Position numbers and translations under genes: made by a program. This document shows positions 10,912 to 48,057 of a stretch of 64,000 nucleotides of DNA, piece by piece. The stretch's first letter is position 1; every line of letters begins with the position of its first letter. The notes under the pieces are model-generated. The model had not been told where the DNA came from, did no database searches, and was given only the letters and a program-made list of their open reading frames with translations. Location: assembly GCF_003751445.1 (NCBI RefSeq), contig NZ_RJUU01000001.1, positions 3,043,001 through 3,107,000 on the forward strand, in the 5' to 3' direction. The stretch comes from Streptomyces sp. 840.1. Its GTDB lineage: Bacteria > Actinomycetota > Actinomycetes > Streptomycetales > Streptomycetaceae.

Positions 10912-11043
10912 TTGGTGCGGCTCCCGAACCGGGTCTTTGGGGACGACGGTGCGGCGGTATTCGGTTGTTGCGGTGCTGCAGTGCTGCGGTGACGCCGTGG
11001 TGCGGTGCTGCTGTGCGGGTGCTGCGTCGGCGCTCGTGCCGCC

Positions 11044-11766
11044 CTAGTGGGCCGCTGTGTGCGCCATGCTGTCGCGACGTGACTGCGACTGGGCTTGCGG
11101 TTGCAACGGCACGCCGGCCGCCTGGTTGCGGCGCGGTTGTGCGACCGCCCCGTTCTGGACATCCATGACGGCATGCGCCACGAGGCCGCCCATCGGGTCG
11201 TGTCTGATCAGGTCCCGGAGCCGGGAGCGCGATGAGCGCCCCTCGTTCCCGGGGTACAGGTGCTTGCCGAGTCCGACCGCGTGGGCCAGTGCGGCGAGCG
11301 CCGCGGTCCGCGGGTCCGGCGGTACGCCGGTGCGGATCGCGCTGTCCAGCCGGGCCTTGATGTCCCGGCTTATTGCCGTGTCCGTCGCCTGGTAGCGAGT
11401 TGTCGGCAGCACTCCGCACATCTGGCCCGCCACGGCATGCACCATGCCGCACCGCTCCAGATGGGCGAGGTAGATCTGGCGAAGCCCCAGTCGGGGTCCG
11501 CCTATCCAGTGGACGGCCCGAACCGGGCTGCCGCGTCTGCGCAGCAGTTCCAGTGCGGAGTCCAGAGTCGGATCTCCTGTCGGCCGTGGCATCACCACGG
11601 CGATACGATCCCCGTCAGGGGCTATCCGTCCTGCCAGAGCCAGCTCTACTAGCTGTGCTCCGGCGAGGCCGAGGTCGAGCGACTGCGGCTGCGCTGTGGT
11701 ACCCGTGGTCGGGTCCAGAGCGAGCAGCAGAAGCTCCTCCGGAATTGTTCTGCGGCTCCTGCCCAT
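11044..11766 (-). CDS. GOLPH3/VPS74-like GPP34-family protein
   Basis: 240 residues matching the GPP34 family common in Streptomyces: PEELLLLALDPTTG at the N-terminus, then LAGAQLVELALAGRI, a variable middle and ALAHAVGLGKHLY. Eukaryotic relatives bind phosphatidylinositol-4-phosphate at the Golgi. The bacterial role is not established, although links to membrane or secretion processes have been proposed. The C-terminal 40 residues are Gln and Arg rich and look disordered. It is divergent from the D,D-carboxypeptidase gene. Confidence 0.85.
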   Translation of the reverse strand: MGRSRRTIPEELLLLALDPTTGTTAQPQSLDLGLAGAQLVELALAGRIAPDGDRIAVVMPRPTGDPTLDSALELLRRRGSPVRAVHWIGGPRLGLRQIYLAHLERCGMVHAVAGQMCGVLPTTRYQATDTAISRDIKARLDSAIRTGVPPDPRTAALAALAHAVGLGKHLYPGNEGRSSRSRLRDLIRHDPMGGLVAHAVMDVQNGAVAQPRRNQAAGVPLQPQAQSQSRRDSMAHTAAH

Positions 11767-11960
11767 CCATGCCTCCCCGCGTGGATGAGTGACAGGGTGA
11801 CCCCTCTCACATCTGTCTGTCGAGGGTGCCTGGGTGCTTTGTACTGGAACCAGTAGGTATGTCGTTCTCGTCTAGCAGCTCAGCCGAGGGTTCACACGGG
11901 ACACTGGTAGATGGTTCGGACAGCGCGGGGATGTCCCCGTGCCGCATGGAGGAGGCATCG

Positions 11961-14573
11961 GTGGCGGGCGAGTCCCCCGACAAGTCGGAGCAGCAGAAGT
12001 CGTCGGGAACGGCTCGGAGCGAGCACGATCCGCGGCTCTCGGTGTTCCGCGAACCCGCCTCACCGGCGGAGTCCGGCGGCAGGACGGACACGGCGACGGC
12101 CGTCTTCGGTACGCAGCGGTCCGAGTCGGCGGCCGACGGTGAGCCTGCGGCCGGGTCCGCAGCCGCCGCGGCGGAGACCCCTGAAGGCCCTCAGAGCCCG
12201 GTGAAGGCCCCTGGGGCCGCGTCGGACGCCCCGGAGGAGTCCGGGGAGCCCCGGGAGCCCGCAGGGCCCGCGGAGGGCGAGGAGCCCGCTGGGGCGGCGG
12301 ACGCGGCGGAGGCCGATGCGGCGGATCCGGCGGAGGCGCCGGAGAGCGCGGCGGCCGAGGCCGACGGCGACGCGGCCGAGCCCGAGGAGGGCGATGTGCG
12401 GCTGCGCGCTGCCGTGGCCGCCTGGGTGTCGACGGACGGCGAGGCGCAGGACGGGGACGACGGGGACGCCGGCGGCGAGAAGCCTGCGGCGGAATCCGGG
12501 AAGCCGTCCGATGAGCCGGCCGAGCCGTCGGCCGACGAGCCGGCCGGGCGGTCCGACGCGACCGCGGAGAGCGAAGCCAGGGTGCCTCGGACCCGTGAGG
12601 AGTCCGACGAGAACTCCAGCTCAGGGGCCGACGAGGGCTCCGGGCCGGATTCCGGGCCGGATTCTGGGGCGAAGTCCGAGGAAAGCTCTGAGCCGAAGCC
12701 GGACGCGGACTCTGAGCCGAAGCCGGACGCGAACGCAGACACTGACCCGGACACGAAGCCGGACGGTGCAGAATCCGACGCGAAGTCCGGCGCGAAGTCC
12801 AAGGCAGTCCCGGAGCCGGAGCCTGAGCCTGAGCTGGGAGAAGACTCCGGCAGCGGCTCCGAAGGCGACTCGGACAGCGGCTCCGGCGCGGCGCCCGACG
12901 GAGATGTCGACGGAGACGTCGACGGCCCGGCCGCCGCGAAGACCGGCATCGACCAGGCGACCGCCGTGTTCAAGGCGCCGAAGCTGCCACGCGTCGACCA
13001 GCCGACGACGGCGCTGAAGATCACCCCGCCGTCGGCCGGGAAGCCGAAGCCCGGGACCGGAGGCGGGACCGGGTCCGAGCCCGAGTCCGCAGCCGAGCGG
13101 ACCAGCAAGTTCGTACCGCTGCGGGCCGACGACGTACGGCAGGCCCCCGCGCCGCGCGCCCCCGAGACCCCTGCCCCGGCGTCGGGACCGGGCCGGTCCG
13201 AGAGCGGGACCGGCCCCGCGTGGGCCGCCCAGCTGCCGCCCGACGCGTCACTCAGCGGCGCCGAGCGGACCCGGCAGCAGCCGATGCCGCCCAGGCCGCC
13301 GCTCGACCTGCTGGCCGAGCTGACGAACACCCCGCCGCCGCCGGAGACCCCGGTGCGCACCGCGGTGCGGCGGGTCAAGATCTGGACGCCGCTGGTCCTC
13401 CTGCTGCTGATCGCGTTTGCAATCGTGCAGATGGTGCGTCCGCTGCCCGACCCCTCGCTCACGCTGTCGGCGAAGCCGACGTACACCTTCGACGGCGCTC
13501 AGCCGTCCCTGCCGTGGCCCGACCAGGGCCAGGGCTACATGGCGGCGACCGGCCTCGGCAAGGTCGGCTCGTTCGGCAAGCAGAAGCCGGTGCCGATCGC
13601 GAGTGTCGCCAAGGCGATGACCGCGTACCTCGTGCTCAAGGACCACCCGCTGAAGCGCGGTGAGAAGGGTCCGGGCATCCCGGTCGACGCCAAGGCGGAG
13701 TCGGACGGCAAGCTCTCCAGCGAGGGCGAGTCCACCCTGGACACGGTGAAGAAGGGCGACGTGCTCTCCGAGCGCGACGCGCTCGCCGCTCTCATGATCC
13801 CGTCGGCGAACAACATCGCCCGGCTGCTGGCGCGCTGGGACGCGGGATCGGAGAAGGCGTTCGTCGAGAAGATGAACGCGACCGCGGACGAGCTGGGCAT
13901 GACGAACACCACCTACACCGACCCCTCCGGGCTCACGGCCTCGACCGTGAGCACCGCCGAGGACCTGGTGAAGCTGGGGGAGAAGCTCGTCGAGTTCCCG
14001 GCGCTGATGGACATCACCAAGCTGCCGGAGTGGAAGGACCCGTCGGGCAAGACCTGGCGGAACTACAACACGCTCGTGCCCTACGACAACGCCCTGGGCA
14101 TCAAGACCGGCTCCACCACCAAGGCGGGCGGCAACCTGCTCTTCGCCGCGCACAAGATGGTCGACGGCACGGACCAGCTCATCGTCGGGGCGGTGCTCGG
14201 GCAGTACGACAGCGACTCGATCATCGACGCGGTGAACGCGGCCAGCAAGAAGGTCATGCTGGCCACGCTGGACCTGCTGGAGGGCGCCAAGATCGTCAAG
14301 AAGGGTGATGTCGTCGGCACGGTCGACGACGGTATGGGCGGCACCGTCCCCGTCGTCGCGACCAAGGACGTGAAGGCGGTCGGCTGGTCGGGTCTCACGA
14401 TCAAGCTCGAAATCACCGACGACGGCAGGACCATCCCGCACTCGGCGGCAGCCGGTACGCACGTCGGCACCCTCACCGTGGGTGAGGGTGCGAGCCAGGT
14501 GCAGGTGGCGGTCGCGCTCCAGAGCGACCTGACGGAACCGGGGGCCGGCGAGAAGCTGACCAGGATCGGCTGA
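11961..14573 (+). CDS. D-alanyl-D-alanine carboxypeptidase with a long acidic cytoplasmic tail
   Basis: 870 residues from GTG 11961 behind GGAGGAGG. The serine peptidase S11 domain follows a single membrane span at about 475-492 and carries SxxK (Ser548, Lys551), SxN (Ser615, Asn617) and KTG (Lys715). A PBP5-like C-terminal domain ends the protein. The enzyme trims the terminal D-Ala from peptidoglycan stem peptides outside the membrane. The first 470 residues are unusual: extremely acidic, low complexity (SEPKPDAD, EPEPEPEL), and contain the recurring ATAVF and PTTAL motifs. A longer open frame extends upstream, but only the GTG has a good ribosome-binding site. Confidence 0.92.
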   Translation: MAGESPDKSEQQKSSGTARSEHDPRLSVFREPASPAESGGRTDTATAVFGTQRSESAADGEPAAGSAAAAAETPEGPQSPVKAPGAASDAPEESGEPREPAGPAEGEEPAGAADAAEADAADPAEAPESAAAEADGDAAEPEEGDVRLRAAVAAWVSTDGEAQDGDDGDAGGEKPAAESGKPSDEPAEPSADEPAGRSDATAESEARVPRTREESDENSSSGADEGSGPDSGPDSGAKSEESSEPKPDADSEPKPDANADTDPDTKPDGAESDAKSGAKSKAVPEPEPEPELGEDSGSGSEGDSDSGSGAAPDGDVDGDVDGPAAAKTGIDQATAVFKAPKLPRVDQPTTALKITPPSAGKPKPGTGGGTGSEPESAAERTSKFVPLRADDVRQAPAPRAPETPAPASGPGRSESGTGPAWAAQLPPDASLSGAERTRQQPMPPRPPLDLLAELTNTPPPPETPVRTAVRRVKIWTPLVLLLLIAFAIVQMVRPLPDPSLTLSAKPTYTFDGAQPSLPWPDQGQGYMAATGLGKVGSFGKQKPVPIASVAKAMTAYLVLKDHPLKRGEKGPGIPVDAKAESDGKLSSEGESTLDTVKKGDVLSERDALAALMIPSANNIARLLARWDAGSEKAFVEKMNATADELGMTNTTYTDPSGLTASTVSTAEDLVKLGEKLVEFPALMDITKLPEWKDPSGKTWRNYNTLVPYDNALGIKTGSTTKAGGNLLFAAHKMVDGTDQLIVGAVLGQYDSDSIIDAVNAASKKVMLATLDLLEGAKIVKKGDVVGTVDDGMGGTVPVVATKDVKAVGWSGLTIKLEITDDGRTIPHSAAAGTHVGTLTVGEGASQVQVAVALQSDLTEPGAGEKLTRIG

Positions 14574-41421: not shown

Positions 41422-41582
41422 CCGGTGCTCCTCGGGGTCGGGGCCGTGGCAATCGGGGTCGGGGTCGGGGTCCGGGTTGTGCGTGGTGGGCGGCACAGGG
41501 CGAACCTACCCGCGCGCGGGCGGGAGAAGCGGGAGGGGCCACGGCAGAGGAAGGGCAGGAGCAGGGGGCGGCGGGCGGCGCC

Positions 41583-42031
41583 GGGTTCAAGGAGTTCGCC
41601 TCGCGGGTCGCCATCGACACCTCGGCCCTCCAGTTCGAGTCCGACGAGCTGATGCGCCCGAAGTACGGGGACGACGCGGCCATCGCCTGCGGCGTATCCG
41701 CGATGGCCACGGGCAGGCAGATGCAGTTCTTCGGCGCCCGCGTCAACGTCGCCAAGGCGCTGCTGTACGCGATCAACGGCGGCCGCGACGAGCGCACCGG
41801 CAAGCTCGTGGTGAGCGGCTTCGAGCCGGTCACCGGCGACTACCTGGACTACGACACCGTCGCCGAGCGGTACGACGCGATGCTCGACCGGCCGGCCAGG
41901 ACGCCATGGAGCACCCGGAGAGGTACCCGCAGCTGACCATCAGGGTCTCCGGATACGCGGTCAACTTCACCCGGCTGAGCCGTGAGCAGCAGCTCGACGT
42001 CATCAACCGCACGTTCCGCGACTCGCTCTGA
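41583..42031 (+). pseudogene. pflB: Remnant of pyruvate formate-lyase (pflB), both ends of the C-terminal half joined
   Basis: Two pieces of a PFL glycyl-radical enzyme are fused in different frames. The first (41583 to about 41890) covers the active-site cysteine region: [35 protein letters not shown] and [23 protein letters not shown]. The usual Cys-Cys pair is Cys-Gly. The second (41900-42031) covers the glycyl-radical loop [13 protein letters not shown] and the C-terminus [14 protein letters not shown]. Roughly 250 residues between them and some 380 before them, by comparison with known PFL, are missing. No start codon. It cannot make an active enzyme. Confidence 0.88.
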
Positions 42032-42056
42032 CGCCATCCGCACCGGAGGCCCCGCC

Positions 42057-42430
42057 ATGGCCGCGTCCCTCACCCCCACTGCGTCCCGCACGCCTATCCC
42101 CTCCCGCACACCCACCCCATCCCTCATACCTGCCTCGTCTCCTGCGCCGGGCCGGGCCCCGGGCACCCCGGCTGCGGCGGTCACCCGCAGGACGGTCTCC
42201 GGCTCCGTCCACTCCTGGGACCTCTCGACCGGCGTCGACGGCCCCGGCACCCGCTTCGCCGCCTCCCTCGGCAACGTCTCGCACGTCGACGTACTCCCGT
42301 TCCACAAGCTCGGCGAGGCGAAGCGCGGGCCCTGGATGCGCCGTTCGCCCTGCACGACACCCCGTCACCCACCCCCGGACAGGTCGCCGCCAGGGAGATC
42401 TTCGCCGCGCACGGCTTACACGCCGTCTGA
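42057..42430 (+). pseudogene. pflA: Remnant of pyruvate formate-lyase activating enzyme (pflA)
   Basis: ATG 42057 with CCGGAGG upstream. After a Pro/Thr-rich leader the frame encodes SGSVHSWDLSTGVDGPGTRF, the N-terminus of PFL-activating radical-SAM enzymes. It then jumps to AASLGNVSHVDVLPFHKLG, which belongs near the C-terminus. The segment with the CxxxCxxC iron-sulfur motif is gone. A frameshift follows, and the natural ending (FALHDTP...EIFAAHGLHAV, TGA 42430) continues in another frame. The enzyme cannot bind its cluster. It follows the pflB remnant directly, as in functional pfl operons. Confidence 0.85.
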
Positions 42431-42572: not shown

Positions 42573-43655
42573 GTGACCGAGCCACCAGAGCCGTCTGCCG
42601 ACAGGTCCGCCCGCCTCGCGCCCACGGGCACCCGGTCCGTCACCGCCCGCGCGACCGCGGCCGGCGTCATCGTCTCCCTCCTGCTCGTCGTCGCGATCGT
42701 GCTCGGCAGCAGGCTTCTGGAGAACTTCGACTCGGCCCTCCTGCCCTATGCCGTGGCCACGGTCTTCCTCGCCTTCGGAGTGGCCTACCGGTACACGGTC
42801 TGGGTCTCCGCACCCGGCGCCAAGCGGCTGTTCAAGAAGGGCTGGGGGAGCCTCTTCTCGGTCGCCAACTTCCGCAGGGCCCCCACCGCCCTGCCGAAGA
42901 TGATCGCCACGTACCTCGGCTTCCAGAAGTTCCTCGGCGCCCGCTCCCACGCCCGCTGGGCCGCCCACCAGCTGATCTTCTGGGGCTGCATCCTCGCCTC
43001 CCTGATCACCTTCCCGCTGACCTGGGGCTGGTTCACCTTCACCTCCGGCAGTGGCACCGGGCCCGGCTACGAGATGCGTATCTGGGGCTTCAAGATCATC
43101 GGATTCGACTCCCTGGACATCCTCGGCTGGCTGATGTTCCACGGCCTGGACATCGCCGCCGTACTCGTCATCCCGGGCGCCTCCTATTTCCTGTGGCGCC
43201 GGATGAAGGACCGGGGCGCCATCACCGGCCAGCGGTTCGCCTACGACCTGGTGCCGCTGATCGCGCTGCTCGTCATCGCCGTCACCGGCCTGCTGCTCAC
43301 CTTCTCCTCGATCTTCCTGCACGGCGGCGGCTACGAGTTCCTGGCGATCCTCCACATGGTGTCGGTGGTCTTCACCCTCATCTACATCCCGTTCGGGAAG
43401 TTCTTCCACATCGTGCAGCGGCCCGCCGCGGTCGGCATGCAGCTGTTCAAGTACACCGGCCGGCAGGACCAGGAGGTCTTCAGCTGCCGCCGCTGCGAGG
43501 AGCCCATCGACACCGCCTCGTATGTCGAGAACCTCCGCGGCACCATGCGCGACCTCAGCCTCGACTTCGACGCGTGGGCCGAGTACTGCCCGCGCTGCAA
43601 GCGGGTGCTGCGCGGTAGTGCCTATCTCTCCCAGGTGAAGAAGGGCTTCAAGTGA
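42573..43655 (+). CDS. Membrane subunit of a molybdenum redox complex (NarI/HdrE-like with zinc ribbon)
   Basis: 360 residues from GTG 42573. Six predicted membrane helices (residues about 28-48, 55-76, 130-152, 188-212, 227-248 and 256-278), with histidines in or near helices (HQLIFW, FHGLDI, ILHMVSVV, FFHIV) that could ligate heme b. The C-terminal cytoplasmic part carries two CxxC pairs (CRRCEEP and CPRCK), probably a zinc or rubredoxin-like site. Often annotated as an MFS transporter, which its size and histidines do not support. It overlaps the next gene by four bases and starts a five-gene operon. Confidence 0.8.
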   Translation: MTEPPEPSADRSARLAPTGTRSVTARATAAGVIVSLLLVVAIVLGSRLLENFDSALLPYAVATVFLAFGVAYRYTVWVSAPGAKRLFKKGWGSLFSVANFRRAPTALPKMIATYLGFQKFLGARSHARWAAHQLIFWGCILASLITFPLTWGWFTFTSGSGTGPGYEMRIWGFKIIGFDSLDILGWLMFHGLDIAAVLVIPGASYFLWRRMKDRGAITGQRFAYDLVPLIALLVIAVTGLLLTFSSIFLHGGGYEFLAILHMVSVVFTLIYIPFGKFFHIVQRPAAVGMQLFKYTGRQDQEVFSCRRCEEPIDTASYVENLRGTMRDLSLDFDAWAEYCPRCKRVLRGSAYLSQVKKGFK

Positions 43656-45976
43656 CCGCGGACCCCCGAGCGGCCGACCCCCGGGCGATCGTGCCCCTCG
43701 ACCCCTCCCTCGCGCCGCCGGGCACCCGCGCCTTCCGGGACGCGGGCGGTATCCCCGCCGACCAGTGGCACGCCGACCAGAACGGCGAGACGCTCGTCCC
43801 CACCCACTGCTGCTTCTGCGGCGTCCAATGCGGGATGTATCTGCGTGTCGACCGCGGCGGCAAGGTCTTCGGTGTCGAACCCCGCAACCACGACATCAAC
43901 CGGATGCGCCTGTGCCCCAAGGGCATCAACGCCTACCAGCAGGTCAACCACCCCGACCGGCTCACCGCCCCGCTCATGCGCCGCTCCCGTGACGAGGAGT
44001 TCCGGGAGGTCTCCTGGGACGAGGCCCTCGACTTCACCGTCGCCGAGATCAAGCGGATCCAGCAGACCCACGGCAACGACGCGTTCGGGCTGCTCGGCGG
44101 GGCCAGCCTGTTCTCCGAGAAGACCTACCTGGTCGGCAAGTTCGCCCGGGTCGCCCTCAAGTCCCGGCACGTCGACTACAACGGCCGGCTCTGCATGGTC
44201 AGCGCCGCCGGCGCCAACAAGCTCGCCTTCGGCATCGACCGGGCCGGCAACCCCTTCTCCGACATCCTGCTCACCGACTGCCTGCTGATCGCGGGCTCCA
44301 ATGTCGGCGAGTGCTTCCCCGTGCTGACCCAGTACGTATGGGGTGCGCGGGACCGCGGGGCCAGCCTGATCGTCATCGACCCGCGCGAGACGGCCGTCGC
44401 CCGCACCGCCGACATCCATGTCGCCCTGAAACCCGGCACGGACTCGGTGTTCTTCAACGCCGTTTTGAACGTGGTGATCGAGGAAGGGCTCACCGACGAG
44501 AACTACCTCGCCGCCCACGCCACCGGCTGGGCGGAGGTGAAGGCCAAGGCCGCCGAGTACCCGCCGTCCAGGGCCGCGGAGGTCTGCGGCATCCCGGCCG
44601 AACAGGTCGTCCAGGTCGCCCGCGTCTTCGCTCGCGCCCCCAGGGCCATGGCCTGGCACGCCCGCGGTATCGAGCACCACTCGCAGGGCGTCGAGAACTG
44701 CCTCACCGTGATCAACCTCTGCACCGCCACCGGACACATCGGCAAACCCGGCGCCGGATACGGAACCCTCACCGGCCAGGGCAACGGCCAGGGCGGCCGC
44801 GAACACGGCCAGAAGTCCGACCTCCTGCCGGGCGGGCGCTCGATCATGAACGAGGAGCACCGACGGCAGATCTGCGAGATCTGGGGGATCGAGGAGTCCG
44901 AACTCCCGCCCGCCGGAACGTCGATGATGGAAATGGTCTGGCAGATGCAGCGCCGAGAGATCCGCGGGCTGATCGGCATCTGCAACAACCCGTTCGTCTC
45001 CCTCCCCAACTACAAGGTGGTCAAGGAGGGGTACGACACGACTGAGTTCCACGCTCAATTCGACTTCTTCCTTTCCGAGACCGCTGCCAACGCGCATGTC
45101 GTCTTCCCCGTCACCAGCTGGGCCGAGGACGACGGAGTGATGGCCAACGCCGAGGCCCGGGTGGTCAAGCACAACAAGGCCCAGGACCCGCCCCCCGGCG
45201 TACGGACCGACACCTGGGTGATGTGCGAACTCGCCAAGCGCCTGGGCGTGGGCGACAAGTTCGCCTTCGCCGACTCCCGCGAGGTCTTCGACGAACTGCG
45301 GATCGCCTCCGCCGGCACCGTCAACGACTACTACGGCATCACCTACGAACGGCTGGAGGAGACGGGCGGAATCGCCTGGCCCTGCCCCTCCACCGACCAC
45401 CCCGGCACCCCCCGCCTCTTCGAGGACGGCAGGACCTACCACCCCGACGAAAAGATCCATCTGCAGGTCGTCGACTGGCACCCGCCCATGGACCCGTACG
45501 ACGACGAGCACCCGATGTCCCTCACCACCGGACGCACCGTCGCGCACTTCCTCTCCGGCAACCAGACCCGCCGGCTCGGCGCCCTCGTCGAACAGACCCC
45601 GCGCCCCTGGGCCGAGATCCACCCCTCCCACGGCTTCCGCAACGGCGAACCGGTCCGGGTCGTCACCCGGCGCGGCAGCGAGGTGTTCCCCGCCCTGGTC
45701 ACCGAGGCGATCCGCCCCGACACCGTCTTCATCCCGTACCACTGGCCCGTCCCCACCGCCGCCAACGCGCTGACCATCGACGCCCTGGACCCCCGCTCCA
45801 AGATCCCCGAGTACAAGGTCTGCGCCTGCCGCATCGAGCACGCCGCGACGATCGACGAGGTACCCGCGCCCCCCGTCGCGCCGGGCCGCCACGCCTACCC
45901 GGAGGCCCAGGTCTCCCGTACCGACCCGTTGCCGCCCACGACCCCGCAGGGCCGTGGCACCTCGGAGAGGAGCTGA
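43652..45976 (+). CDS. Molybdopterin oxidoreductase, catalytic subunit (Cys-type, NapA/NasA-like)
   Basis: 774 residues from GTG 43652. A [4Fe-4S] motif lies at the N-terminus (Cys53, Cys56, Cys60, Cys88; HCCFCGVQCG and LCPKG), followed by the bis-MGD domains. The molybdenum ligand appears to be Cys181 in RLCMVSA, as in periplasmic and assimilatory nitrate reductases. Formate dehydrogenases have Cys or Sec followed by His at this place, which is absent. Other landmarks: GSNVGECFPV, GKPGAGYGTLTGQGNGQGGREHGQ and a C-terminal molydop-binding domain. No Tat signal, so it should be cytoplasmic. Substrate unknown. Confidence 0.9.
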   Translation: MTADPRAADPRAIVPLDPSLAPPGTRAFRDAGGIPADQWHADQNGETLVPTHCCFCGVQCGMYLRVDRGGKVFGVEPRNHDINRMRLCPKGINAYQQVNHPDRLTAPLMRRSRDEEFREVSWDEALDFTVAEIKRIQQTHGNDAFGLLGGASLFSEKTYLVGKFARVALKSRHVDYNGRLCMVSAAGANKLAFGIDRAGNPFSDILLTDCLLIAGSNVGECFPVLTQYVWGARDRGASLIVIDPRETAVARTADIHVALKPGTDSVFFNAVLNVVIEEGLTDENYLAAHATGWAEVKAKAAEYPPSRAAEVCGIPAEQVVQVARVFARAPRAMAWHARGIEHHSQGVENCLTVINLCTATGHIGKPGAGYGTLTGQGNGQGGREHGQKSDLLPGGRSIMNEEHRRQICEIWGIEESELPPAGTSMMEMVWQMQRREIRGLIGICNNPFVSLPNYKVVKEGYDTTEFHAQFDFFLSETAANAHVVFPVTSWAEDDGVMANAEARVVKHNKAQDPPPGVRTDTWVMCELAKRLGVGDKFAFADSREVFDELRIASAGTVNDYYGITYERLEETGGIAWPCPSTDHPGTPRLFEDGRTYHPDEKIHLQVVDWHPPMDPYDDEHPMSLTTGRTVAHFLSGNQTRRLGALVEQTPRPWAEIHPSHGFRNGEPVRVVTRRGSEVFPALVTEAIRPDTVFIPYHWPVPTAANALTIDALDPRSKIPEYKVCACRIEHAATIDEVPAPPVAPGRHAYPEAQVSRTDPLPPTTPQGRGTSERS

Positions 45977-45983
45977 TGCCCGC

Positions 45984-46586
45984 ATGATGGGCAGAACGAT
46001 CTTTATCGACCCGGGGCGCTGCATCGGCTGCCAGGCCTGTGTCTCCGCCTGCCGGGAATGCGACTCGCACCGCGGCAAGTCGATGATCCACCTCGACTAC
46101 ACCGACGAGGGCCAGTCCGTCGCCTCCCTTCCCACCGTCTGCATGCACTGCGAGGACCCCGTCGCCCCGTGCGCCGAGGTCTGTCCCGCCGACGCGATCC
46201 TGGTGACCGCGGACGGGGTGGTGCAGCAGGCGGACACCACCCGCTGCATCGGCTGCGCCAACTGCGTCAACGCCTGCCCCTTCGGTGTCCCGAAGATCGA
46301 CCTCCAGGCCAAGCTGCAGCTGAAGTGCAACCTCTGCTACGACCGCACCGCCTACGGCCTCGCCCCCATGTGCGCCACCGTCTGCCCGACGGGGGCCCTC
46401 TTCTACGGAACCGTCGAGGAGCTCCAGGCCGAACGCCCCGGCGTCCAGGTCGCCGACACCTTCGTCTTCGGCGAGAGCGAGGTCCGCACCGGCGTCGCCA
46501 TGGTCGTCCCCGCCGACAAGCTCCAGTGGCCGGTGCCCGGCGGTCTGCCCGTCGTGGAGATCAACGGGAAGGACGTCCGCCGATGA
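45984..46586 (+). CDS. Four-cluster ferredoxin-like electron-transfer subunit
   Basis: 200 residues from ATG 45984 (GGAG upstream); ATG 45987 is the alternative. Four cysteine groups are visible: CIGCQACVSAC, CMHCEDPVAPCAEVC, CIGCANCVNACPFG and CNLCYDRTAYGLAPMCATVC, the arrangement of DmsB/NrfC-type beta subunits with four [4Fe-4S] clusters. No Tat or signal peptide. It should carry electrons between the molybdenum subunit and the membrane subunit. It follows the catalytic gene with a gap of seven bases and overlaps the Rieske gene by four. Confidence 0.92.
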   Translation: MMGRTIFIDPGRCIGCQACVSACRECDSHRGKSMIHLDYTDEGQSVASLPTVCMHCEDPVAPCAEVCPADAILVTADGVVQQADTTRCIGCANCVNACPFGVPKIDLQAKLQLKCNLCYDRTAYGLAPMCATVCPTGALFYGTVEELQAERPGVQVADTFVFGESEVRTGVAMVVPADKLQWPVPGGLPVVEINGKDVRR

Positions 46587-47347
46587 GCGTCACCGACCAG
46601 CCGCCGCCCTCCCAGCCGCCCGCCGGGGACCCGCGCGAGGCCCTGCACGACCGGATCGCCGCGGATTCCCTGACCACCCGGCGCGACTACCTGCGGATCG
46701 TCGCCACCGTCTCCGGCGGACTCGCCGTCGGCGGTCTCGGCGTCGCCGCCGGCATCCTCCCGCGTCACGGCGACCCCGACGACGCGAAGGCACCCGAGCC
46801 GAAGAGGGTCAGCACCCAGCTGCTGCCCGGGGAGTCCGTCGCCTTCCGCTACCCGGACGAGGAGGACCGCGCGGTCGCCGTCCGGCTCAACGACGGGACC
46901 CTCGTCGGCTACTCGGCCATCTGCACCCACCTCGCCTGCGCCGTGCTCTGGCGGAAGGACCGGGGCTCCGAGGGTGAGCTGTACTGCCCCTGCCACGAGG
47001 GTGTCTTCGACGCGCGAACCGGCGAGGTCACCGCAGGACCGCCGCCCCGCGGACTGCCCAAGGTGGCCCTCACCGAGCAGCCCGACGGCAGTATCTGGGC
47101 GCTGGGCACCACGCACTCGGGCGAGAGCATCGAGCACGGCCTCTGCCGCCGGCTCGGCGACGACCGCCCGGACCTCGCGTCCCGGATCGGCTGCCCCGGA
47201 GCCAAGCGGGGCGCCGAGGCCCCCGCGGCGACCGGCGCGGGCGCCCCGCATGCCACCGGCTCCCGGCCCGCTGCCCCCCAGACCCCTGACGACCAGACTC
47301 CTGACGACCGGACCTCCGGCGCCCGGACCTCCGGCAGCCGGACATGA
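46583..47347 (+). CDS. Tat-targeted Rieske [2Fe-2S] protein
   Basis: 254 residues from ATG 46583. An N-terminal anchor with a twin-arginine motif (TTRRDYLRIV, Arg33-Arg34) and hydrophobic segment GGLAVGGLGVAAGIL is followed by the Rieske domain with CTHLAC (Cys114, His116) and CPCHEG (Cys135, His138), including the two extra cysteines for the structural disulfide. The C-terminal 60 residues are low complexity with a TPDDQTPDDR repeat. It should fold in the cytoplasm and be moved outside by the Tat system. It overlaps both neighbours by four bases, so the operon is tightly coupled. Confidence 0.9.
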   Translation: MSVTDQPPPSQPPAGDPREALHDRIAADSLTTRRDYLRIVATVSGGLAVGGLGVAAGILPRHGDPDDAKAPEPKRVSTQLLPGESVAFRYPDEEDRAVAVRLNDGTLVGYSAICTHLACAVLWRKDRGSEGELYCPCHEGVFDARTGEVTAGPPPRGLPKVALTEQPDGSIWALGTTHSGESIEHGLCRRLGDDRPDLASRIGCPGAKRGAEAPAATGAGAPHATGSRPAAPQTPDDQTPDDRTSGARTSGSRT

Positions 47348-47724
47348 GCGACGCCCAGCAGCCCGAGCCCGGCCCGCACTATCCGGACTACCACCCGGGC
47401 AGCGCCCGGCCCGAACTCAACCGGCCCGTCCACGAGCGCTACCCCCAGATCCGGCCCACCAGCGGATACGGCGACCCCCGCGTCCGCCACACCGGGCCGG
47501 GGCCGGGAGCCGGCACGGACCAGGAGCCGGAACGCTCCTCGAAGCTCACCGCCCGACTGACCCTCGCCATGACCGTGGTCATCGGGCAGCTCTGGGGACT
47601 GACCGTGATCATCGACGAATGGATGGAGGGCAACTCCGGTACCGCCTGGTGGGGGGCCGGATTCCTGTGCCTGTCGTTCCTCGTGGTGCTCGGCCTCTGG
47701 GCGCTGGACCCGAAGGACCGCTGA
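47344..47724 (+). CDS. Small membrane protein of the redox operon
   Basis: 126 residues from ATG 47344, overlapping the Rieske gene by four bases. A proline-rich cytoplasmic leader of 70 residues is followed by two hydrophobic segments (LTLAMTVVIGQLWGLTVII and GAGFLCLSFLVVLGLWAL). No recognised domain. As the last gene of the operon it is probably an assembly or anchoring factor for the complex; this is inference from coupling. Confidence 0.75.
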   Translation: MSDAQQPEPGPHYPDYHPGSARPELNRPVHERYPQIRPTSGYGDPRVRHTGPGPGAGTDQEPERSSKLTARLTLAMTVVIGQLWGLTVIIDEWMEGNSGTAWWGAGFLCLSFLVVLGLWALDPKDR

Positions 47725-47817: not shown

Positions 47818-48057
47818 ATGAGTACCGCCCCCGCCCCCGGCCCGCGTGATCCCGAACCGGGCCCGCCGGACCCCTCGCAGCGGCCGGACCGGCCCGAGCC
47901 CAAGGGCCGGCCGAAGCCGGCTCTGGTCTTCGACGATCCGCTGGACCAGCAGTCCTCGGACGACACGGACCGGGGCTGGGGCGAGCGGTCCCCGTCCGGC
48001 AGCAGCGCCGCCGACCTGGCCCGCTTCCTCGACGAGAAGCCGCCCCACCACATCTGA
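47818..48057 (+). CDS. Small hypothetical protein
   Basis: 79 residues from ATG 47818. Proline-rich and acidic N-terminus, then PALVFDDPLDQQSS and a C-terminal helix SAADLARFLDEKPPHHI. No membrane segment. I recognise it only as a conserved-looking Streptomyces small protein. It sits between the redox operon and mscL and is convergent with mscL with eight bases between the stops. Confidence 0.65.
   Translation: MSTAPAPGPRDPEPGPPDPSQRPDRPEPKGRPKPALVFDDPLDQQSSDDTDRGWGERSPSGSSAADLARFLDEKPPHHI

Follow-up and report, generated by a model that had tools for sequence, protein, structure and literature searches.

The window analysed here, a 64,000-nucleotide stretch of the Streptomyces sp. 840.1 genome (contig NZ_RJUU01000001.1, positions 3,043,001 to 3,107,000), carries at 42573-47724 on the plus strand five adjacent open reading frames (ORFs), confirmed at the place where the original prediction had described a redox complex. 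We consider it probable that these genes encode a membrane-anchored, cytoplasm-facing nitrate reductase that combines a Nas-type catalytic core with a Rieske protein. The substrate had earlier been called not obvious; sequence and genomic context now make nitrate the most likely one, because the active-site residues, NarK-type neighbour genes and proteins in which a NarK-like part is fused to the b subunit all point to it. The argument draws on computed genes and their order, on how they are conserved, on active-site residues and the pattern of heme ligands, and on predicted fold and genomic context. The five genes are:

42573..43655, +, b subunit, 360 aa
43652..45976, +, molybdenum-bis(pyranopterin guanine dinucleotide) (Mo-bisPGD) catalytic subunit, 774 aa
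45984..46586, +, ferredoxin (FeS) subunit, 200 aa, counted from the ATG at 45984
46583..47347, +, Rieske protein, 254 aa
47344..47724, +, small membrane protein, 126 aa

Three of the four junctions are four-base overlaps (b/Mo at 43652-43655, FeS/Rieske at 46583-46586 and Rieske/small protein at 47344-47347), in agreement with the earlier description of such overlaps at most junctions, and the Mo/FeS junction is a 7-base gap between the stop ending at 45976 and the first ATG at 45984. The b gene may truly start upstream of 42573, since many relatives of its product are 10-30 residues longer than the window protein. The reported lack of a NarJ-type chaperone gene also stands: no narJ lies among the five genes and no space between them is left for one, although a copy elsewhere in the genome was not searched for. 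A Nas-type core would not be expected to come with a NarJ.

Subunits of the complex

Window proteins were compared with Pfam at a threshold of E 1e-3 and with NCBIfam models at their curated cut-offs. The catalytic subunit carries PF04879, PF00384 and PF01568 and has a [4Fe-4S] site besides the Mo-bisPGD domains. Its predicted Mo ligand is Cys181 (codon 44192-44194), followed directly by Met182 and later by Asp196, with GQGNGQGGREHG from residue 375. A Cys-then-Met pair with an Asp 15 residues on is the pattern of NasC, NasA and NapA, and in comparison with NapA both RLCM and this Asp are kept. Formate dehydrogenases of the FdhF type depend for catalysis on a His after the Cys or Sec and on the Arg of an RGQ motif; in all 12 aligned rows from the complex, the His is replaced by Met and the Arg by Thr. 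The ligand region thus proved to be Cys-type and Nap/Nas-like rather than formate-dehydrogenase-like, as had been proposed. Neither a hydrophobic stretch, nor an N-terminal RR, nor a signal peptide was seen in this subunit, unlike in twin-arginine-exported NapA, while Cys181 and the length of 774 aa differ from Asp-ligated NarG, whose model spans 1235 positions. The Cys ligand and the accompanying b subunit likewise differ from the arsenite oxidase AioAB. The catalytic core is Nas-type and not NarG-type.

Phylogenetic analysis agrees with this placement. The 18 catalytic subunits taken from complex loci cluster as a single group (support 100/99), which stays at 100/99 after removal of the long-branch Escherichia coli rows (NapA and FdhF), and in both cases the adjoining group consists of eight actinobacterial NasC-type proteins (100/99), two of them named by a best NCBIfam hit below the cut-off and the other six by similarity alone. 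The tree was built without the paralogue loci L194, L198 and L200 and without an AioA row. Nesting within a characterised family that shares the five-gene operon was not seen.

The b subunit has six predicted transmembrane helices, and its predicted structure, compared with known folds, appears NarI/EtfD-like. His132, His190, His261 and His279 are candidate heme ligands; in a 55-row alignment the first, third and fourth are invariant and His190 is kept in at least 90% of rows. The former assignment as a NarI-like subunit agrees with the predicted fold and the heme-ligand pattern. The same alignment revealed a feature beyond that assignment, a C-terminal CxxC...CxxC tail (Cys305/308 and Cys339/342) in which all four Cys are invariant and which may bind Zn or Fe; modelled alone, the tail is poor, with a mean predicted local distance difference test score (pLDDT) of 67. 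The b subunit has no Pfam match at the above threshold and no sequence match in the PDB, and NCBIfam returned weak matches to QmoC, TmcC and HmcE. Public annotation labels most named proteins among the best 120 listed b relatives (P0001-P0120) "MFS transporter", so that many b subunits are misnamed, while some Deinococcus relatives are labelled respiratory nitrate reductase gamma subunit. The misleading label has perhaps spread from four NarK-b fusion proteins (P0223, P0226, P0224 and P0239).

The ferredoxin subunit (Fer4_11 and other Pfam domains) has 17 Cys, 16 of which fall into four four-Cys groups, predicting four [4Fe-4S] clusters, and it lacks any hydrophobic stretch. Its best solved relative is 1kqf_B, the FeS subunit of a formate dehydrogenase, and NarH is more distant from it than are the subunits of formate dehydrogenase and of DmsB type. 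The original prediction had called both the catalytic and the FeS subunit nitrate-reductase-like; this holds for the former, in a Nas-type sense, and is less apt for the latter.

The Rieske protein (PF00355) contains TTRRDYLR, its RR at residues 33-34 being followed by a single hydrophobic stretch at 39-57, and it carries the cluster motifs CTHLAC at 114 and CPCHEG at 135, which are of the bc/AioB type. It therefore shows the CTHxxC and CxCH motifs of a bc-type Rieske protein behind a twin-arginine anchor. The RR as well as the columns of C114, H116, C119, C135, C137 and H138 are invariant in 13/13 rows, and the Deinococcus rows have CPHLGC. The best solved relatives are the Rieske proteins 3fou and 1nyk, then AioB. 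A cytosolic Rieske protein resembling NirD or NasG was also considered and dropped, because the twin arginine is invariant, a hydrophobic anchor follows it and the motif is bc-type; the earlier assignment as a twin-arginine-type Rieske protein is thereby upheld. The small protein has two hydrophobic stretches and no Pfam match at E 1e-3. Its score against DUF6755 (PF20540) is 18.8 bits, below the gathering cut-off of 27, and the Deinococcus protein encoded at the corresponding position of the operon scores 44.3 bits against that model.

Distribution and genomic neighbourhood

A named scan for the b subunit returned 313 relatives, the best 80 of which were kept: 75 Streptomyces loci, one of them titled [Kitasatospora] papulosa, and five loci from actinobacterial metagenome-assembled genomes (MAGs). 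The 75 loci partly repeat genomes of the Streptomyces sample described below, and the five MAG loci repeat L045-L049. All five genes are present in the same order in 73/75 named Streptomyces loci, and contig ends cut the other two. The arrangement is more than chance, because the gene set and its order recur in this way, which also agrees with the proposal that the genes form one complex. The putative diheme b subunit is encoded with the complex catalytic subunit at every locus examined. Across sampled genomes, the b subunit occurs in 50/199 Streptomyces genomes including that of the window (five of the 50 being broken, partial or distant, namely G008, G528, G566, G570 and G675), in 6/296 genomes sampled from the class, each of them a Streptomyces, and strongly (E < 1e-90) in 12/198 genomes drawn from the phylum, with two more weak. 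A 55-row b profile found 15/296 phylum genomes at E < 1e-100 and nine more weakly.

Other classes of Actinomycetota contributed 11 loci from 10 genomes, ten of which hold the b, Mo, FeS and Rieske genes consecutively, the remaining one being cut; the small-protein gene adjoins in six, lies further off in two and is unmatched in three. The b gene was also found on four Deinococcus plasmids, and all three that were opened hold the five genes in order. By source names, the b family reaches Armatimonadota and other groups, for which b alone was considered and neighbours were left unchecked. Two diverged copies of the complex occur in G428 (L050 and L053); in the tree, the L053 copy clusters with those of the Deinococcus plasmids, suggesting that the complex has been transferred between phyla. 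At L171 about 1.4 kb (11006-12425) separates the b and Mo genes, perhaps an insertion that splits the operon.

Neighbours were counted at the 63 Streptomyces loci with enough flanking sequence. Genes of NarK type by similarity occur on the same strand, upstream or downstream, at 26 of these, and they fall into two subtypes, one at L111 and L131 and the other at the remaining loci. NarK-type genes lie downstream of the operon in L043 and L044 and flank it on the three opened Deinococcus plasmids. Furthermore, in four metagenome proteins a NarK-like part and the b subunit form one chain, and two of the four have a Pfam major facilitator superfamily (MFS) domain; these fusions may be assembly errors. 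Full-length NirB is encoded at 10/80 named loci and exceeds its curated cut-off at L189, and HPP proteins are encoded downstream of the operon in 3/5 MAG loci. The operon is thus larger in relatives than the original prediction had described, extending to nirB and narK and, in one genome, to dcu, pflB and pflA. This genome, Streptomyces G571, includes in its operon a gene for the Dcu anaerobic dicarboxylate transporter. At L189:10129-12918 its NirB has a C-terminal Rieske_2 domain and is accordingly a NirB-NirD fusion, which adjoins narK and dcu upstream of pflB.

Also absent from the original prediction are decayed genes for pyruvate formate-lyase (PFL) and its activase PflA, which lie immediately 5' of the intact operon at 41580-42427, at the position where relatives have intact copies. 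The other features flanking the operon are:

41580..42028, +, PFL remnants (residues 387-494 and 716-759 of 759) in two frames; no working gene
42159..42427, +, PflA remnants (about residues 11-47 and 200-264 of 264) in two frames
47818-48057, short ORF downstream of the operon, to which the family scan was not applied

Complete PFL and PflA genes stand directly upstream on the same strand at 23/63 loci, with partial copies at three more; short leftover matches were also seen in L112 and L158. PFL exceeds its cut-off in 60/199 Streptomyces genomes, and among the 18 complex-bearing genomes with such a PFL it adjoins the complex in 16. In eight genomes it is found no more than 30 kb from a narG (25 listed narG places checked). 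NarG itself exceeds its cut-off in 6/50 genomes with the complex vs 59/149 without it (p 2e-4, relatedness ignored), and no NarG over cut-off was found in the window genome. The latter has a NirB, a NarK-like gene away from the operon (302.7 bits, below cut-off) and, at L040:6765-10895, a 1377-aa fusion of a Nas-type Mo domain and a CysJ-like flavoprotein, which appears to be an NAD(P)H nitrate reductase in a single polypeptide. Also in the window genome, at L192:7093-9696, a NarK-like gene is followed by one whose product resembles, by eye, a HemD-type regulator of the NnaR kind.

Probable nitrate reduction and its alternatives

The likely use of the complex is nitrate reduction under oxygen limitation, because the operon encodes PFL in many Streptomyces and NirB in some; the upstream PFL and PflA genes, and their remnants in the window, hint at such conditions. 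A number of observations weigh against this reading. The best NCBIfam family of the catalytic subunit is NasC (NF047855), with a score of 755 bits against a cut-off of 1100 (the Fdh-alpha model gives 544 bits); the NasC-type neighbours L054 and L055 also fall short of that cut-off (834 and 776 bits). Formate dehydrogenases (428 bits) precede NapA (380) among the solved structures listed, which include no NasC-type chain. Foldseek gave no match for the b subunit at E 0.001, and its fold scores are below about 13, a level at which matches between helical bundles may reflect their arrangement alone. Most tested NarK neighbours score below the model cut-off of 311.7 bits (L032 311.4, L052 290.5, L044 218.7), with L102 passing at 316.7. 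In the window strain the complex is intact and PFL and PflA are present as fragments only, and across genomes PFL is not associated with the complex (18/50 vs 42/149, p 0.37). Motifs of Rex, DosR, FNR and GlnR upstream of b were not in excess over shuffled sequences in 77 regions, a partial test, as the region upstream of b is not the operon start where pflB, narK or nirB lead. Finally, neither NarK nor PFL is found nearby at 35/63 Streptomyces loci, and L052 has a nitrite/sulfite reductase gene and, by eye, MoeA close to the complex, which would fit assimilation as well.

The last two points, together with the NasC-type group adjoining the catalytic subunits in the tree and the lack of PFL cluster members at the loci of other classes, favour a rival in which the same enzyme with the same substrate serves aerobic nitrate assimilation, the quinol pool being an unusual donor and the PFL link being local to some Streptomyces. 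We regard this as unlikely. The window genome already has the NasA-CysJ-like fusion and a NirB, in G012 and G015 a second nirB stands by narK and pflB in addition to one elsewhere, NarG is rare in complex-bearing genomes, and PFL is an oxygen-sensitive enzyme. That enzyme, directly upstream with PflA at so many loci, was also the reason to consider a quinone-linked formate dehydrogenase consuming the formate of the neighbouring PFL, to which the closest solved structures listed and the nearest solved relative of the ferredoxin subunit could be added. Nevertheless, such an enzyme is improbable because the catalytic His and Arg are replaced in all 12 complex rows and because of the NarK neighbours and NarK-b fusions; moreover, no PFL is found at the other-class loci, and none is annotated at three Deinococcus loci. 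Reduction of another oxyanion (chlorate, selenate or iodate), or an oxidation with cytochrome c as the acceptor for the Rieske protein, in the manner of arsenite oxidases, appears very improbable. IdrA/AioA-type enzymes do work with a Rieske protein, and AioB follows the bc-type proteins among the solved structures most similar to that of the complex. The arsenite oxidase model, however, gives the catalytic subunit 139 bits vs 755 for NasC, and the annotation of the three Deinococcus loci, the only ones searched for it, shows no cytochrome c gene.

Proposed electron path and known systems

For the nitrate reductase that we favour, NarK would import nitrate, which the Nas-type Mo-bisPGD subunit would reduce in the cytoplasm with electrons arriving via the four-cluster ferredoxin. 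The donor would probably be menaquinol, oxidised at the outer face, from where the diheme b subunit would move electrons inward across the membrane; the exported Rieske protein would provide an additional one-electron site at that face, and the small two-helix protein would complete the membrane anchor. With electrons moving inward, and with proton uptake on the inner and release on the outer side, energy could be conserved as in NarGHI. Nitrate turnover, quinol as donor, the role of the Rieske protein, the sidedness of the complex and its use under oxygen limitation are what we infer. It is also conceivable, albeit rather unlikely, that the b subunit and the Rieske protein split menaquinol electrons in a bc1-like manner, as a built-in half Q-cycle. 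If so, the complex would move more protons than NarGHI and represent a type of nitrate reductase beside Nar, Nap and Nas, derived from an assimilatory-type core.

Like NarGHI, including Nar1 of Streptomyces coelicolor, the window complex has Mo and FeS subunits that lack an export signal; they would rest on a b subunit whose predicted fold appears NarI-like and which probably binds two hemes, with quinol oxidation likely at the outer face. It differs in its Cys-ligated, 774-aa Nas-type core (NarG is Asp-ligated), in its own Rieske protein, in a six-helix b subunit with a CxxC...CxxC tail and in a five-gene set without NarJ. The complex would give Streptomyces a further way to reduce nitrate; only 6/50 complex-bearing genomes also have NarG over cut-off. 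The b subunit appears akin in predicted fold to EtfD of Mycobacterium smegmatis, which serves the electron-transfer flavoprotein and, to our knowledge, has no Mo subunit. The Rieske subunit is of the type found in AioAB and bc complexes, and we know of no b subunit in AioAB. AioA is moreover described, in the available part of the source, as having no amino-acid Mo ligand (PMC10100899), in contrast to Cys181 here. The activity of Nar1 needs the Rieske-containing bcc-aa3 supercomplex, and it has been proposed that QcrC electrons are diverted to heme bD, as far as the accessible text goes (PMC7931247). Nar1 thereby suggests that the window complex, too, may receive electrons by way of that supercomplex; a Rieske protein encoded together with the enzyme offers a handle on why this is so.

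Rieske proteins have also been found beside other nitrate reductases. In Haloferax mediterranei, the nar operon encodes the Rieske protein NarB and the cytochrome b NarC together with NarGH, and Q-cycle coupling was proposed, according to the portion of the report available (PMC2483277); there, the NarG-type site lies on the outer side and NarC is 486 residues long, whereas the window core is Nas-type without export signal. The NirD-like Rieske protein NasG of Paracoccus serves NasC by passing on NADH electrons from NasB, and in Bacillus bataviensis a Rieske protein and HCP are encoded next to nasC (PMC3475470). The accessible text mentions no membrane b subunit for these nasC systems, while the window Rieske protein is bc-type with a twin-arginine anchor. 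Nas enzymes share the catalytic core and active-site residues of the window complex and, according to the passages available, are usually located in the cytoplasm and receive electrons from NAD(P)H or ferredoxin (PMC4272520), whereas the window core is encoded with a membrane b subunit, a ferredoxin and an exported Rieske protein. As had been predicted, the five-gene module appears uncharacterised: no description was found in the open-licence literature, where subscription papers are mostly missing. We infer a membrane nitrate reductase with a new combination of parts, whose NasC-type core, encoded with a membrane electron chain in a module kept across Actinomycetota and Deinococcota, would stand against the description of NasC-type enzymes as exclusively assimilatory in the available part of that source (PMC10100899).

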